64,000 nt of DNA from Bernardetiaceae bacterium. Lineage in GTDB: Bacteria; Bacteroidota; Bacteroidia; Cytophagales; Thermoflexibacteraceae. The translations under genes and the position numbers were made by a program. The notes under the pieces were generated by a model, which saw nothing but the letters and a program-made list of their open reading frames with translations, did not search any database and was not told the origin of the DNA. Shown in pieces: positions 1 to 17,010 of the stretch. The number at the start of each line of letters is the position of its first letter. Position 1 is the stretch's first letter. The stretch spans positions 1-64,000 of the forward strand of contig JANWWZ010000009.1 in assembly GCA_025057115.1 (NCBI GenBank), written 5' to 3'.

Positions 1-1611
1 AGAGATGGATTGCGACTGATTTTCCATCCACTCTTATGTGGATGGAATCAAGTCGGAGTACTCCCTTCAGCAAGAGATGGATTGCGACACATATAGATCC
101 CGCAACCCATTGGCTGTCGGGATGTCGGAGTACTCCCTTCAGCAAGAGATGGATTGCGACTGTAGTCTCCTCGGGGAGCGTCCCACGTCCATCGCGTCGG
201 AGTACTCCCTTCAGCAAGAGATGGATTGCGACATGGCAAGATTGCGCCGCGAGAAGTTTGTTCAACCCGTGTCGGAGTACTCCCTTCAGCAAGAGATGGA
301 TTGCGACATAAGGTGAGATTTACTTACTTGGTAGCGGTAGCTAGTCGGAGTACTCCCTTCAGCAAGAGATGGATTGCGACACTCGAACCGAGTCCGTTCC
401 CCGTCCAGGCGGACGGTCGGAGTACTCCCTTCAGCAAGAGATGGATTGCGACCTGTAACCACTTCCCCGAACATTTCTTCGGGGAAGGTCGGAGTACTCC
501 CTTCAGCAAGAGATGGATTGCGACCTTCATATTTTTTTACTTTGGTTGTCCCCCCAGCAGGGTCGGAGTACTCCCTTCAGCAAGAGATGGATTGCGACTT
601 TAGCAAGGGTAGACTTTCCACAACCAGATCGAGTCGGAGTACTCCCTTCAGCAAGAGATGGATTGCGACTGCACCGTACACTACACTTCCATGAATCTCT
701 TGGCGTCGGAGTACTCCCTTCAGCAAGAGATGGATTGCGACTCATCGGGAATGCATGCGGACTCGAAACGAGTCCTTTGTCGGAGTACTCCCTTCAGCAA
801 GAGATGGATTGCGACACTCACCTTTGAGAGCATCATCTACCAAGTAAAGTCGGAGTACTCCCTTCAGCAAGAGATGGATTGCGACCCCATTTGCCCCCAA
901 GGCTTTGCAGGCGGAGTCGAAGTCGGAGTACTCCCTTCAGCAAGAGATGGATTGCGACCGTTAATGCAACAGCTGCTGGCAATGAGGCAGGCCCAGTCGG
1001 AGTACTCCCTTCAGCAAGAGATGGATTGCGACGCTTTTCCGGCGTTAGCGCCGGACTTTACTTTAGTGTCGGAGTACTCCCTTCAGCAAGAGATGGATTG
1101 CGACTCAAATACCCCTATTGCCTTGGCTACATGCGCTAGTCGGAGTACTCCCTTCAGCAAGAGATGGATTGCGACTAGTACCGTTTAATGTCCACTTTTT
1201 TAAGTATGGGTCGGAGTACTCCCTTCAGCAAGAGATGGATTGCGACATTAAATAATCTACTTAAGGGTTGGGGGAGAGCTCTGTCGGAGTACTCCCTTCA
1301 GCAAGAGATGGATTGCGACTTAACAGCCACTACAAGACTTATTTTGTCTGGATTGTCGGAGTACTCCCTTCAGCAAGAGATGGATTGCGACAGCAACAGC
1401 ATAAAAGTTCCAGTAGTGCGAAAGAGGTCGGAGTACTCCCTTCAGCAAGAGATGGATTGCGACACCCAGACGAACAACGGCGAAATCGCCGTTGATGGCG
1501 GGTCGGAGTACTCCCTTCAGCAAGAGATGGATTGCGACTTTTAAACCTTGCAATCGCAAGGTTTACCTGATTGAGTCAGAACACTCCCTTCAGCAAGAGA
1601 TGGATTGTAAA
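1..1611 (+). CRISPR. CRISPR array, 37-bp repeat, type III-like handle, left end outside the window
   Basis: The window opens inside a repeat (1-16). Then follow 21 intact, identical 37-bp repeats starting at 52, 124, 196, 271, 344, 416, 488, 562, 633, 705, 779, 849, 922, 996, 1068, 1139, 1210, 1283, 1355, 1427 and 1502, and one degenerate repeat at 1575-1611. The 22 spacers are 33-38 bp and all different. The repeat begins GTCGGAGTACTCCC and ends GGATTGCGAC: its ends are complementary (GTCG/CGAC) and it holds the palindrome GGAGTACTCC. Read on the + strand, the last eight bases ATTGCGAC match the crRNA 5' handle known from type III systems such as those of Thermus. The decayed last repeat marks the leader-distal end, so the leader, and probably the cas genes, lie left of base 1. 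Type III is inferred from the repeat only. Several spacers hold strong hairpins (see findings). Confidence 0.98.
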
Positions 1612-3119: not shown

Positions 3120-3156
3120 AGGCAGGCACTAATCGCACAAAAATAGTTAAAACGCG

Positions 3157-3984
3157 ATGACATTTCAGCGCATCAGCCAAGCTGCCTCCTACATAAGGCA
3201 ACTCACTAGCCTACCTTGTTACACGGGCATTATCTGCGGCACGGGATTAAGCGGACTGGCAGAAATCATGCGCGTTAAACAAAAAATTAGTTATGCTAAC
3301 ATTCCCCACTTTCCCGTTTCTACTGTGGAAAGCCATGCAGGGAATCTGTTGTTTGGTGAAATTGCTTCGCATCCCGTAGTAATGATGCAAGGCAGAATGC
3401 ACTACTACGAAGGTTATTCCATGAGCGAGGTAGTATTTCCTGTGCGGGTGATGAAGCTGTTGGGAATCAAGCGTTTATTTATTTCCAACGCCGCTGGAGG
3501 GCTTCACTCAAACTTTCAATTAAGCGACTTGATGATCATTTGCGACCACATCAACCTACATCCCGACAATCCCCTGCGTGGAGCAAATATAGATGAACTG
3601 GGCACTCGCTTCCCAGACATGAGCCAGCCTTATGACCCTGAGTTAATTGCACTGGCAGAAAAGGTAGCTGAGCAAAAAGGGATTAAGTTGCAAAAAGGCG
3701 TTTACGTCAGTGTATCAGGTCCTAATTTAGAAACGCCAGCGGAGTATCGCATGCTGCGCTTCCTCGGTGCTGATGCCGTAGGTATGTCCACCGTTCCAGA
3801 GGTGATTGCAGCTCGTCATATGGATTTGCCAGTATTTGCAGTTTCCGTTATTACGGACCTGTGTACACCTACGCATATTCAAAAAGTTACCATTGAAGGA
3901 GTCATAGCTGCAGCTCGGAAGGCAGAACCCAACTTGCAAGCATTAGTGATAGGCATGTTGGAAAAGATACAGGAGAGCTCTTGA
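3157..3984 (+). CDS. punA: Purine nucleoside phosphorylase (trimeric family)
   Basis: The product cleaves inosine, guanosine and deoxy forms with phosphate to base plus (deoxy)ribose 1-phosphate in purine salvage, in the cytoplasm. The 275-residue length is normal for the trimeric PNP family. Diagnostic segments are GTGLSGL near the N-terminus (phosphate binding), ESHAGNLLFG, MQGRMHYYEGY, SNAAGGLH, HINLHPDNPLRG and the purine-site region around SGPNLETPAEYR and VGMSTVPE. The gene stands alone, 37 bp from the divergent dihydroorotase-like gene and tail-to-tail with the next gene. hpt at 34 kb acts in the same salvage pathway. The choice between inosine/guanosine phosphorylase and MTA phosphorylase is made from the overall motif set and is fairly secure. 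Confidence 0.92.
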   Translation: MTFQRISQAASYIRQLTSLPCYTGIICGTGLSGLAEIMRVKQKISYANIPHFPVSTVESHAGNLLFGEIASHPVVMMQGRMHYYEGYSMSEVVFPVRVMKLLGIKRLFISNAAGGLHSNFQLSDLMIICDHINLHPDNPLRGANIDELGTRFPDMSQPYDPELIALAEKVAEQKGIKLQKGVYVSVSGPNLETPAEYRMLRFLGADAVGMSTVPEVIAARHMDLPVFAVSVITDLCTPTHIQKVTIEGVIAAARKAEPNLQALVIGMLEKIQESS

Positions 3985-9924: not shown

Positions 9925-12537
9925 TTATTCAAGGGTTACTTCAGTGATGTTGATAAAACGCAGGCGATCTCCGTCTAACTCTATTAAAACAGGGTTTTCT
10001 TTGGTAATGTTTCCTGCCAAAATTTCCTTGCTTAACTCATTGAGCAAGTAGCGTTGCATGACGCGCTTGAGCGGACGGGCGCCAAATTGAGGATCGTAGC
10101 CCAGTTGTGCCAAGTAGTCTAGCGCTTCGGAGGTAGCCTCTATTTCGATGCCGTTTTCCTTCATGCGCTGCTGTATCTGGCGGAATTGTATATCGGTGAT
10201 CTGGCGCATCTGCTTGCGCGTTAGCGGACGGAACATAATAATTTCATCAATTCGGTTGAGAAACTCAGGGCGTATGGTGCGCTTGAGCAGTTCGAAGACT
10301 TCTTCCTTGGTGCGCTCTGTAATTTCTTCGGCATTAAACTCGTTGAGGTGTTCAAAGCGCTCGCGAATGATTTCAGAGCCCAAATTGCTGGTCATGATAA
10401 TGATGGTATTCTTAAAGTTGGCTACCCGACCTTTGTTATCTGTTAGGCGACCATCATCTAACACTTGGAGCAAGATGTTGAACACATCGGGGTGCGCTTT
10501 TTCTATTTCATCGAGCAAGATGACGCTATAAGGCTTGCGTCGAACAGCCTCTGTAAGCTGTCCTCCTTCGTCGTAACCAACATATCCAGGCGGAGCACCG
10601 ATGAGCCGACTCACGCTATGGCGTTCTTGGTATTCGCTCATATCGATGCGCACCATCGCATTTTCATCGTTGAAGAGATACTCTGCTAAGGCTTTAGCCA
10701 GTTCAGTTTTACCTACTCCTGTAGTTCCTAGAAAAATGAATGAGCCGATAGGTCGCTTGGGGTCTTGCAGCCCAGCACGGCTGCGGCGTACTGCATCGGC
10801 TACGGCTCTAATAGCCTCTTCTTGACCTGCTACGCGCTTGCCTAGTTCTTCTTCCAGATTCAAGAGTTTTTCGCGCTCGCTTTGCAGCATCTTGCTCACT
10901 GGGATGCCTGTCCACTTGGCAACTACTTCAGCAATCTGCTCGGCAGTAACCACGTCTTTAAGCAAAGGCTTGTCTTTGGAAAGTTGCTCCATTTGCTTTT
11001 GCAAAGCGGCCAGTTTTCGCTGCGCTTCGGGGATAAGTCCGTAGGTCAATTCGGCGGCTCTGCCGTAATCGCCATCGCGTTGGGCTTGTTTGAGTTCTTT
11101 TTCGTAAGCCTCTATGCGCTCTTTTTCTTGCTGAATGGAGTGAATGATTTCCTTTTCCATTTGCCAGCGGCTGCGCAGGGAGTTGCGCTTGGCTTCCAGC
11201 TCAGCAATTTCGGCATTGAGGACCTTTTCTTTCTCAAAATCCTTTTCGCGACGGATAGCTTCGCGTTCAATTTCTAGTTGCATGATCTTGCGCTGCACTT
11301 CGTCCAGTTCCTCAGGCAAGGAATCTATTTGAATGCGCAGGCGAGCAGCAGCTTCATCCATCAAGTCGATGGCTTTGTCGGGCAAAAAGCGGTCAGTGAT
11401 GTAGCGATGGCTAAGTTGTACAGCGGCAATAATGGCATCGTCCTTAATTTGCACCCCATGATGGAGTTCGTATTTTTCCTTAATGCCCCGCAGAATGGAA
11501 ATGGCATCCTCTGGAGAGGGTTCATCCACCATGACAGCCTGGAAACGGCGTTCAAGGGCTTTGTCTTTTTCAATGTACTTTTGATACTCCTTCAAAGTAG
11601 TAGCGCCGATGGCATGCAGTTCTCCGCGTGCAAGAGCAGGTTTGAGCAAGTTGGCTGCGTCCATGGCTCCTTCCCCGCCTGCTCCTGCTCCTACAAGGGT
11701 ATGAATCTCATCGATAAAGAGGATAATTTTGCCTTCGCTTTCTACTACTTCTTTGATTACGGATTTCAAGCGCTCTTCAAATTCGCCTTTGTACTTTGCC
11801 CCTGCTACCAGCAAACCCATATCCAGGGAGGCAATAGTAACCGACTTAAGATTTTCAGGAACGTCGCCGTTGACAATGCGCTGAGCAAGCCCTTCTACGA
11901 TTGCCGTTTTACCTACCCCGGGCTCCCCTAGCAAAATAGGGTTATTTTTAGTGCGTCGGCTGAGAATTTGCAATACGCGACGGATCTCTTCATCTCGACC
12001 TATGACAGGGTCGATTTTGCCTTGTCGCGCCAGTTCGGTCAGGTTTTTAGAATAACGCGCCAAGGACTGGTACTTAGCTTCAGCGTTTTGGTCGGTTACA
12101 GAGCTGCCGCCACGCATTTCCTTAATGGCAGCGATGAGGTCTTTTTCGGTAAAGCCAGCATCTTTCATAAGAGTGGCTACCTTGTCTTTTCCTCCTAGCA
12201 AGCCGAGCAAAATGTGCTCGATGGCTACGTAAGAGTCTTTGAAAGTACCCAAGGCGCGCTCGGCGCGTTGTAAGGCAGCGGCTGCATCATTGGAAAGGTA
12301 AGGCTGCGTTCCGCTGGATTTGGGATAGCTGTTGATATAATCCTCTAGTCTGGTTTCCAGCAGTCTGCGATTAATGCCTAGTTTTTTATAGAAAAACTGG
12401 GTGATGTTTTCATCCGCTAGCAACACTGCCTTGAGCAGGTGACCTGTTTCAATAATTTGCTGCTGCTTCCCAGAGGCAATTTCAGAAGCCTTCTGAATAG
12501 CTTCCTGTGCTTTGATGGTGTATTGGTTGAAGTTCAT
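9925..12537 (-). CDS. clpB: ATP-dependent disaggregase ClpB (Hsp100)
   Basis: The hexameric AAA+ machine rescues aggregated proteins together with DnaK. The 870-residue protein has the full set of domains: the Clp N-terminal repeat pair (residues 1-150), NBD1 with Walker A GEPGVGKT near 205 and [14 protein letters not shown], and a coiled-coil middle domain rich in Glu/Lys/Gln (about 400-530). NBD2 has Walker A GTTGVGKT near 605 and [16 protein letters not shown], followed by the C-terminal small domain. The middle domain is what separates ClpB from ClpA and ClpC. The gene is monocistronic, with a good terminator. It lies in the same 8-kb stretch as groS-groL, so several heat-shock chaperones are clustered here. 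Confidence 0.98.
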
Positions 12538-15651: not shown

Positions 15652-17010
15652 ATGCTCATGAGAACACTCAAGTATTATTTAGTTGCTGCCTTACTGTTGG
15701 CAGTAGGTTCATGCAAAAAGAAAGAAGAAGGACCCGTAGAAACAGGTCCACGCGATGCAAAAAATCGAGTAATTCTGGAAGGTAACATCACTACCAACCG
15801 GACCTTAGTGGCTTCTGAAAAGTATATCTTAAGAGGATTTGTACGCGTTAAAGCAGGTGCTACCTTGACTATCCCTCCGGGAACTATCATTTTTGGCGAC
15901 AAAGCAACTTCGGGAACCCTTATCATAGAACGCGGTGGAAAACTGATTGCAGACGGTACCCCTACTCAGCCAATTGTATTTACTTCTGATCAACCTCCAG
16001 GACAGCGCTCTTACGGCGATTGGGGCGGTATTGTAATTTTAGGTAATGCTCCTACCAACAAGCCCACCACTACTCTCATTGAAGGCATTCCAGACGGACC
16101 GTACGGAGGTAATGACCCCAATGACAATTCTGGAGTGCTGCGCTATGTCCGGATAGAATTTTCAGGTATTCCCATTACACCAGGAAACGAAATTAATGGC
16201 TTGACAATGGGCGGAGTAGGTCGTGGGACTACTATTGAATATGTACAAGTTTCTTTCTGCGGTGACGATGCCTTTGAATGGTTTGGTGGCAATGTAAACT
16301 GCAGATATTTGGTGTCTCATCGCACTTGGGACGACGATTTTGACGTAGACTTCGGCTACAGTGGAAATGTGCAATTTGCTGTCGCCCTGCGCGATCCTGC
16401 TATTGCTGATCAATCCACCTCCAACGGCATTGAAAGTGATAACGATGCCAACGGTACCAACGACCAGCCCTTTACTTCTTGCACTTTCTCTAACTTAAGT
16501 GTATTCGGTCCTTTAGGCAGAGGAGTTGCAAATGTGAATTCTCTCTTTGGTCGAGGAGCGCACCTGCGCCGCAATACAGAAAGCTCTATCTTCAATAGCG
16601 TGTTTACCGGCTGGGTGGAAGGATTGCGCCTAGATGGTTCTGCAACACAAAACAAAGTCAATACGGGAGCTTTAGATATTCGCCGCAATTTCCATGCAGG
16701 TCACGGACGAAATATTAACGTAGCAGGAGGAGCTACCTTACCTGAAATTGAAACATGGTTTAACGCTCCTGCACGTGGTAACAGAATATTTGGATCTATT
16801 AGCGAGCTAGGACTCAATGCCCAAAATTTCAACATGACAGCTCCTAATTTCTTGCCGCAGACAGGTTCACCCTTGCTTTCAGGAGCCAGCTTCACAGAAG
16901 CTAAGTTGCAAAATCCTTTCTTTCAGCAAGTTCCTCATATTGGTGCTTTCGGCACTACCGACTGGACGCGCGGTTGGACTAATTTCGACCCCCAAAATAC
17001 CGTTTACTAA
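15652..17010 (+). CDS. Surface lipoprotein with parallel beta-helix features, partner of the TonB receptor
   Basis: This 452-residue protein starts with a lipoprotein signal (LLAVGSC, lipid-modified Cys near residue 21) followed by KKKEE. The body has the repeated pattern of right-handed beta-helix proteins: GATLTIPPGTIIFGDKATSG, GGKLIADGTPTQPIVFTSDQ, GDWGGIVILGNAPTNKP, then short Gly/Asn-rich turns. Such proteins are common beside TonB receptors in Bacteroidota. Its placement 19 bp after the receptor suggests an operon and a role in capturing a ligand at the cell surface; this is inference. An alternative start two codons in (MRTLKYY) is equally likely. A hairpin terminator follows. Confidence 0.8.
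   Translation: MLMRTLKYYLVAALLLAVGSCKKKEEGPVETGPRDAKNRVILEGNITTNRTLVASEKYILRGFVRVKAGATLTIPPGTIIFGDKATSGTLIIERGGKLIADGTPTQPIVFTSDQPPGQRSYGDWGGIVILGNAPTNKPTTTLIEGIPDGPYGGNDPNDNSGVLRYVRIEFSGIPITPGNEINGLTMGGVGRGTTIEYVQVSFCGDDAFEWFGGNVNCRYLVSHRTWDDDFDVDFGYSGNVQFAVALRDPAIADQSTSNGIESDNDANGTNDQPFTSCTFSNLSVFGPLGRGVANVNSLFGRGAHLRRNTESSIFNSVFTGWVEGLRLDGSATQNKVNTGALDIRRNFHAGHGRNINVAGGATLPEIETWFNAPARGNRIFGSISELGLNAQNFNMTAPNFLPQTGSPLLSGASFTEAKLQNPFFQQVPHIGAFGTTDWTRGWTNFDPQNTVY

Follow-up and report, generated by a model that had tools for sequence, protein, structure and literature searches.

Why should the spacers of a CRISPR array be rich in perfect hairpins? The question is raised by the window (the whole stretch of DNA analysed, 64,000 nucleotides), which corresponds to the first 64 kb of contig C86 in a 3.0-Mb assembly of 86 contigs, and which opens with the trailer end of an array (Table 1). 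The left side of this array ends at the contig edge, with a partial first repeat at positions 1-16, followed by the spacers (17-1574) and 21 intact 37-nt repeats; the leader side and the first repeat sit at the end of contig C77. Further along, the window carries an ORF of 870 aa (9925-12537), which we take to encode a ClpB-like product and whose nearest relatives, in a search that may not cover the own genome, are found in Cytophagales, e.g., Pontibacter and Adhaeribacter (76-77% identity). The sequence-only reading of the array stood in part: the hairpin bias and the type III context were borne out, and the proposed origin from a reverse transcriptase (RT)-Cas1, the role as terminators and the idea that a palindrome makes spacer orientation irrelevant were not. 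The hairpinned spacers were probably inherited from hairpin-saturated invaders, of which contig C26 of the same assembly is the one visible, through an RT-less cas1-cas2 pair that supplies a type III effector.

Table 1. Features of the array at the start of the window. C24 and C26 are other contigs of the same assembly.
Feature	Position	Strand	Remarks
CRISPR array trailer end, type III-associated	1-1611	+	37-nt repeat GTCGGAGTACTCCCTTCAGCAAGAGATGGATTGCGAC; 22 spacers
Degenerate terminal repeat	1575-1611	+	Marks old (leader-distal) end
10-bp perfect hairpin	22-47	+	Spacer 17-51
10-bp perfect hairpin	462-487	+	Spacer 453-487
7-bp perfect hairpin	759-775	+	Spacer 742-778
7-bp perfect hairpin	1038-1055	+	Spacer 1033-1067
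8-bp perfect hairpin	1475-1494	+	Spacer 1464-1501
10-bp perfect hairpin	1542-1565	+	Last spacer, 1539-1574; common to end of contig C24
Spacer matching C26 100-135	308-343	-	36/36; antisense to C26 ORF
Spacer matching C26 135-167	816-848	-	33/33; adjoins protospacer of spacer 308-343
Spacer matching C26 993-1028	1247-1282	-	30/36 identity; antisense; near-identical peptide

All six hairpins were confirmed in position and stem length. With a criterion of a perfect stem of at least 7 bp and a loop of 3-8 nt, 6/22 window spacers contain a hairpin, compared to 0.16 in mononucleotide and 0.19 in dinucleotide shuffles (maximum 2 in 300 shuffles of each kind), and stems of 10 bp are present in 3/22 spacers versus 0-0.007 in shuffles. 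Among chromosomal 36-mers, a 7-bp stem is found in 0.85% (window) or 1.2% (contig C55), and against the window rate the observed 6/22 gives P = 2.5e-8. The hairpin bias of the window spacers, which had been claimed to lie far above chance, is therefore real. It extends to contig C24, which contains 66 repeats and 65 intervening spacers, starts with the end of C77 and finishes with the last spacer of the window. Stems of at least 7 bp occur there in 6/65 spacers (0.45-0.74 expected) and of at least 8 bp in 5/65 (0.11-0.12 expected). Apart from the common last spacer, C24 and the window array have no identical spacer. Since both the start in C77 and the last spacer agree, C24 and C86 appear to hold two versions of one array, which suggests strain-level variants in the sample or an assembly branch. 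In the sister genome G001, with a near-identical repeat, hairpins were found in 8/107 spacers against 0.8 expected, two of the eight being identical copies of one duplicated spacer; the sisters G002 and G003 gave 0/8 and 0/5, a small sample of each array. The G001 array (L152) also has duplicated adjacent spacers 58/59 and 78/79, a pair 82/83 with 32 nt in common, and a distant pair 45/55. A second array of the own genome, on contig C27 and with a different repeat, is without clear hairpin bias (1/46 vs. 0.27 expected). This array (L066) has a 30-nt repeat, GTTTTAATCGTACCATTGTGGAATTGAAAT, and 46 complete spacers; copies of the repeat are also present at L049 57 and 123 and at L054 1.

Several spacers of the two array versions resemble one another. 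Window spacer 742-778 overlaps C24 spacer 52, which holds a 12-bp hairpin, by 15 nt, an overlap that would place the source hairpins near each other; spacer 886-921 is similar to C24 spacers 14, 27, and 7, and spacer 17-51 to C24 spacer 21. The scores of these pairs, the overlapping one included, are 30-52, compared with a shuffled maximum of 26. Judged from such alignments, the hairpins seem to be closely spaced in their sources, as they are in C26. Between spacer 17-51 and C24 spacer 21, one compensatory change of an A-T to a C-G pair was observed, with the stem read by eye on the alignment.

The array had been assigned to a type III context, and the sister species G001 supports this assignment, as type III-B genes precede the array there in the order cmr1, cas10, cmr3, a gene for a CARF-RelE protein, more genes, cmr4, cmr6, a Card1-like gene, more ORFs, cas1, cas2, and the array. 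In G002 and G003, cas1-cas2 likewise stand beside the array. In the own genome, cas1-cas2 are located on C55, and a type III-A set (cas6, csm1-5, Card1, and csx20) is located on C3, away from the array. A search for RAMP genes in the own genome returned two, both on C3, and it is on this ground that the array is linked to the III-A set: it would serve a type III, RNA-sensing effector, of which the own genome yielded the III-A csm operon. The Cas2 gene at L013:15969-16655 encodes a protein of 228 aa whose N-terminus is extended by about 130 residues, and relatives of this protein in the sisters align over the full length.

What the array has sampled can be seen in C26, a contig of 3,713 bp, which is matched by 18/87 spacers of the window and C24 by DNA or peptide. 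Sixteen of these match by DNA at E ≤0.05, C24 spacer 46 by DNA (E 0.0019) and peptide, and C24 spacer 45 by peptide only. For C24 spacer 57, the DNA match is weak (E 0.032), but the peptide scores 52, where the null reaches at most 32. The six C26 ORFs used here all lie on the plus strand, and 15/18 spacers are antisense to that strand (two-sided P 0.0075), the sense-oriented ones being C24 spacers 40, 45, and 46. A match to the orientation of the target mRNA is a feature of type III arrays, and it would be kept by selection for crRNAs matching mRNA. Outside the 18, G002 has one spacer antisense to C26 (33/36), and G001 has two peptide matches that exceed the null maximum, one of them sense and the other antisense. 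The differences between spacers and C26 are informative: in 12 spacers (11 own and one of G002), 33 changed codons are synonymous and 11 nonsynonymous, and 36/46 base changes fall at third positions. As the differences are mostly synonymous, the C26 ORFs are real, read genes and the element has diverse relatives. Two protospacers lie at ORF starts (1504-1538 and 2113-2149). C24 spacer 6 extends 12 nt beyond the end of C26, and its last two bases fit the contig start in frame when aligned by eye, which is suggestive of a circular C26. The protospacers of window spacers 308-343 and 816-848 have one base in common and jointly cover a C26 hairpin at 109-146, formed by 14 Watson-Crick pairs and one G-T.

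C26 is itself full of hairpins. It contains 22 perfect stems of at least 8 bp (loop 3-14), i.e., 5.93 per kb, compared to a mean of 0.27 in 20 shuffles of its sequence and 0-0.39 in four chromosomal stretches. When the other contigs of the assembly were scanned over at most their first 20 kb, short ones being masked as N, the next densest were C25 (1.8 per kb) and the array contig C24 (1.6), and long contigs reached at most 0.60. Several copies of dispersed inverted repeats around GCCGTTGTTCGTG were seen by eye in C25 (L065) and, past position 16655, in L013. Among phages, the density is 1.42 in Qbeta, 1.09 in M13, 0.76 in FLiP, 0.56 in MS2, 0.46 in part of phi46:3, 0.37 in phiX174, and 0.31 in part of phi47:1. 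Taken together, the stems in the ORFs go beyond what the encoded proteins require: at 7 bp, the six C26 ORFs hold 24 stems compared to about 4.1 in synonymous-codon shuffles. For ORFs 411, 1502, and 2116, 0/100 shuffles reach the observed count; ORF 2-277 shows a borderline excess (5/100), and ORFs 2730-2999 (0 stems) and 3125-3712 (2 vs. 0.7) show no significant one.

The question is then whether the source explains the spacers. Of random 36-mers drawn from C26, 9.7% contain a stem of 7 bp or longer and 5.2% one of 8 bp or longer. Against this background, the 12/87 spacers (13.8%) with a 7-bp stem are unremarkable (P 0.14), and against the chromosomal rate they are extreme (P 1.4e-11), as are the 9/87 with at least 8 bp and the 6/22 of the window. 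The protospacers on C26 likewise display no preference for hairpins: their coverage of hairpins is 0.383, versus 0.354 when placed at random (P 0.36 for stems of 7 bp, 0.22 for 6 bp, and 0.52 for 8 bp); the test comprised 18 protospacers, i.e., 17/18 own ones, the one cut by the contig end being omitted, and one of G002. Spacer ends had seemed by eye to fall at hairpin loops, but the count is 5/36 ends versus 4.7 expected at 7 bp. Because the spacer rate fits that of C26 and the protospacers lack a hairpin preference on it, inheritance from hairpin-saturated sources is likely the main explanation, and a modest bias in adaptation may add to it. An array that samples invaders saturated with short perfect hairpins would come to hold hairpin-rich spacers. 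None of the 18 C26-matching spacers has a stem of at least 7 bp (P 0.175, computed for 0/17), although a 7-bp stem is present in the part of C26 to which C24 spacer 40 matches, and the 12 spacers with such stems, the six of the window included, have zero matches to C26. They would derive from relatives of C26-like elements or from parts of such elements that are not seen here.

The alternative that survives best places the bias in adaptation itself: type III cas1-cas2 would prefer hairpin-folding ssDNA prespacers taken from ordinary invaders. Such a preference is in print. According to the available part of PMC9048733, RT-less type III-A adaptation in Streptococcus thermophilus favours DNA able to fold into secondary structures, the enrichment lying on the encoding strand and a short way downstream of start codons; in Staphylococcus epidermidis a similar preference concerns rRNA and tRNA regions. 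Hairpin-rich type III spacers as such are consequently not unheard of, contrary to the earlier statement that a bias of this kind had no established description. The array studied here is like those cases in being RT-less and in its hairpin-rich spacers, strand bias, and two protospacers at ORF starts; it is unlike them, as far as the available text of PMC9048733 goes, in that the source is hairpin-saturated and no hairpin preference is detectable within it. An adaptation bias is also favoured by the residue over the C26 rate, namely 9/87 spacers at 8 bp or more against 4.5 expected (P 0.036), 6/22 in the window against 2.1 (P 0.016), and 12/69 among the unmatched spacers (P 0.034), all uncorrected and taken at several thresholds, and by the second array of the same genome, which lacks a clear bias. 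On the other side, the sole visible source is itself saturated with hairpins, its protospacers cover them at the random level with no loop preference at their ends, and none of the matching own spacers reaches a 7-bp stem. We regard a preference of this kind, acting on ordinary invaders, as unlikely to be the main cause. An enrichment of hairpins in spacers need not imply a hairpin-loving Cas1, and the composition of the source should be measured first. In the literature, as far as the partial texts available go, no array was found in which the hairpins go back to an element saturated with them, and the available part of PMC5513706 yielded nothing on hairpins in spacers.

A second alternative, in which the hairpins serve to end transcripts, as terminators or as T-arms of phage tRNA genes, and are kept for that reason, is much less probable still. 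C26 does contain 13 terminator-like sites, five of them on the plus strand, versus 2.6 in shuffles, and the longest plus-strand one lies directly after ORF 2116-2610; C24 spacer 32 resembles a tRNA T-arm, with a 17/18-nt match to C55. However, 15/22 C26 stems of at least 8 bp are inside the six ORFs, which account for roughly three quarters of the contig. The T runs behind the window hairpins 759-775 and 1038-1055, on which the terminator proposal had drawn, consist of just three T, and they would be on the non-mRNA strand if these spacers are antisense like 15/18. The search for spacer sources that had been suggested, with C24 and window spacers against phages and window spacers against plasmids, returned only a 28/30-nt match at E 0.1, in three coliphage records. 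The window array itself had no match in either collection, so that a terminator context for it is not visible. T-arm-like spacers were noticed at C24 (L009) 2341-2376 and in G001 (spacers 77 and 90); such similarity suggests that some invaders carry tRNA genes. The related argument that a palindromic protospacer makes the orientation of insertion irrelevant does not fit the located spacers, of which 15/18 are antisense and 0/18 have a stem of at least 7 bp. Last, that an RT-Cas1 took the spacers from structured RNA ends, as the type III context and the antisense bias of 15/18 might indicate, is hardly credible: PF00078 is absent from the own genome and from 4/4 genus genomes, while the same search matches 3/14 control genomes, Cas1 is unfused (332 aa), no RT fused to or adjoining cas1 was found by profile search or among the cas1 neighbours, and, according to the available part of PMC7515739, an RT-less type III system owes a very strong strand bias to selection. 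The antisense bias is thus to be expected where functional type III spacers are selected, even without an RT. The cas1-cas2 pair serving the array is an ordinary, RT-less one.

With inheritance from the source as the preferred reading, the nature of the source becomes the main issue. C26 is an orphan, a single contig for which no relative was found. None of its six ORFs scores above a Pfam family cut-off, and their best PHROG match has an E of only 0.0059. ORF 411-1076 matches RelA_SpoT at E 0.044, below the Pfam cut-off, and its best Foldseek match is SAS1 of Bacillus subtilis (E 8e-6, from a low-confidence model). This ORF may thus be RelA/SpoT-like by predicted fold, which would liken C26 to a mobile element with a small alarmone synthetase of that family; it is unlike such a carrier in its other five ORFs, which have no Pfam family above its cut-off and PHROG E values of at least 0.0059. 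The structure models of two C26 proteins are poor (mean pLDDT 47 and 50). An RNA replicase family was not recognised among the six ORFs, the contig being open at both ends; a tRNA search of C26 found none, and Rfam gave one match under the gathering score (IS128). Relatives of C26 were not found in a viral contig collection (four of six ORFs searched), a phage collection (DNA and two ORFs), and plasmids (two ORFs). Among 390 genomes of the order, one C26 ORF has three weak matches beyond the own genome (E 8e-6 to 3e-4) and another has one (E 0.009); among 395 genomes of the phylum, one ORF matched the own genome alone, in C26 and the window array. At the DNA level, 30/59 related genomes, the own included, have a match to C26 at E 0.01; aside from those in the own genome and in a spacer that recurs in a G002 array, these are short, at E 7e-6 or worse. 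A degenerate peptide pattern retrieved 12 viral contigs, 10 of which encode a product with distant similarity to the RelA/SpoT-like ORF (23-29% identity), and the hairpin density of all 12 is ordinary (0-0.81 per kb); a second pattern retrieved none.

Plus-strand RNA viruses possess genome-scale ordered RNA structure, and the leviviruses MS2 and Qbeta serve as yardsticks for it. When 100-nt pieces were folded and compared with dinucleotide shuffles, the z-scores of the plus and minus strands were -3.00/-2.47 for C26, -2.59/-2.02 for MS2, and -1.84/-1.81 for Qbeta, compared to -0.13 to -0.65 for three ssDNA phages and -0.02 to -0.20 for two dsDNA phage parts. C26 is thus like the leviviruses in a strongly folded plus strand, with a z at or below theirs. 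It is unlike Qbeta and MS2 in having about 4 and about 11 times more perfect stems of at least 8 bp per kb, and unlike leviviruses in that no replicase is recognised among its ORFs and that it sits in the genome assembly of a genus with no detectable RT, where it has been sampled into spacers. The plus strand folds somewhat more strongly than the minus (energy P 0.005). Mismatches in C26 stems are G-T rather than A-C by 7:0 in strict extension and by 12:4 in lax extension (P 0.039; P 0.05-0.07 at other lax thresholds), a weak sign of the plus strand in the stems; the same test gave no signal on the RNA phage MS2.

The element may keep its hairpins through selection on folded plus-strand RNA, and crRNA-guided complexes would perhaps have more difficulty in reading folded mRNA. 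By analogy, it is plausible that folding could shield against crRNA-guided sensing: in the available text of PMC8682760, target-RNA structure lowers the sensitivity of a type III-B complex at 37 C, and a thermophilic type III complex assayed at 60 C is cited there with minor differences between guides only. The boldest form of this proposal, that C26 represents a new class of mobile element, at least partly DNA-borne, whose transcripts are selected genome-wide into back-to-back hairpins as in RNA viruses and are thereby passively shielded from type III immunity, is speculative, and we think it improbable as a whole. If folding does act as a shield, such a counter-defence would be passive and general and would work without an anti-CRISPR protein. 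An odd statistic of spacers has in this way given a lead on an unknown invader with an RNA-phage-like fold in a bacterial genome assembly, an orphan element that is heavily targeted by a type III-associated array.

Under the shield proposal, single hairpins may turn over provided that the mRNA remains folded, and the spacer variants bear on this point. Within C26 stems, and only for pairs whose two bases both lie in the spacer (13 spacers, including one from G002), one variant is compensatory, two leave the pair intact, and six break it. C24 spacer 45 differs from C26 by eight changes that keep the peptide; placed in the C26 flanks, it forms a new stem in another register at almost equal energy (-50.5 vs. 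-53.1), which suggests that foldedness is kept, rather than one given hairpin.
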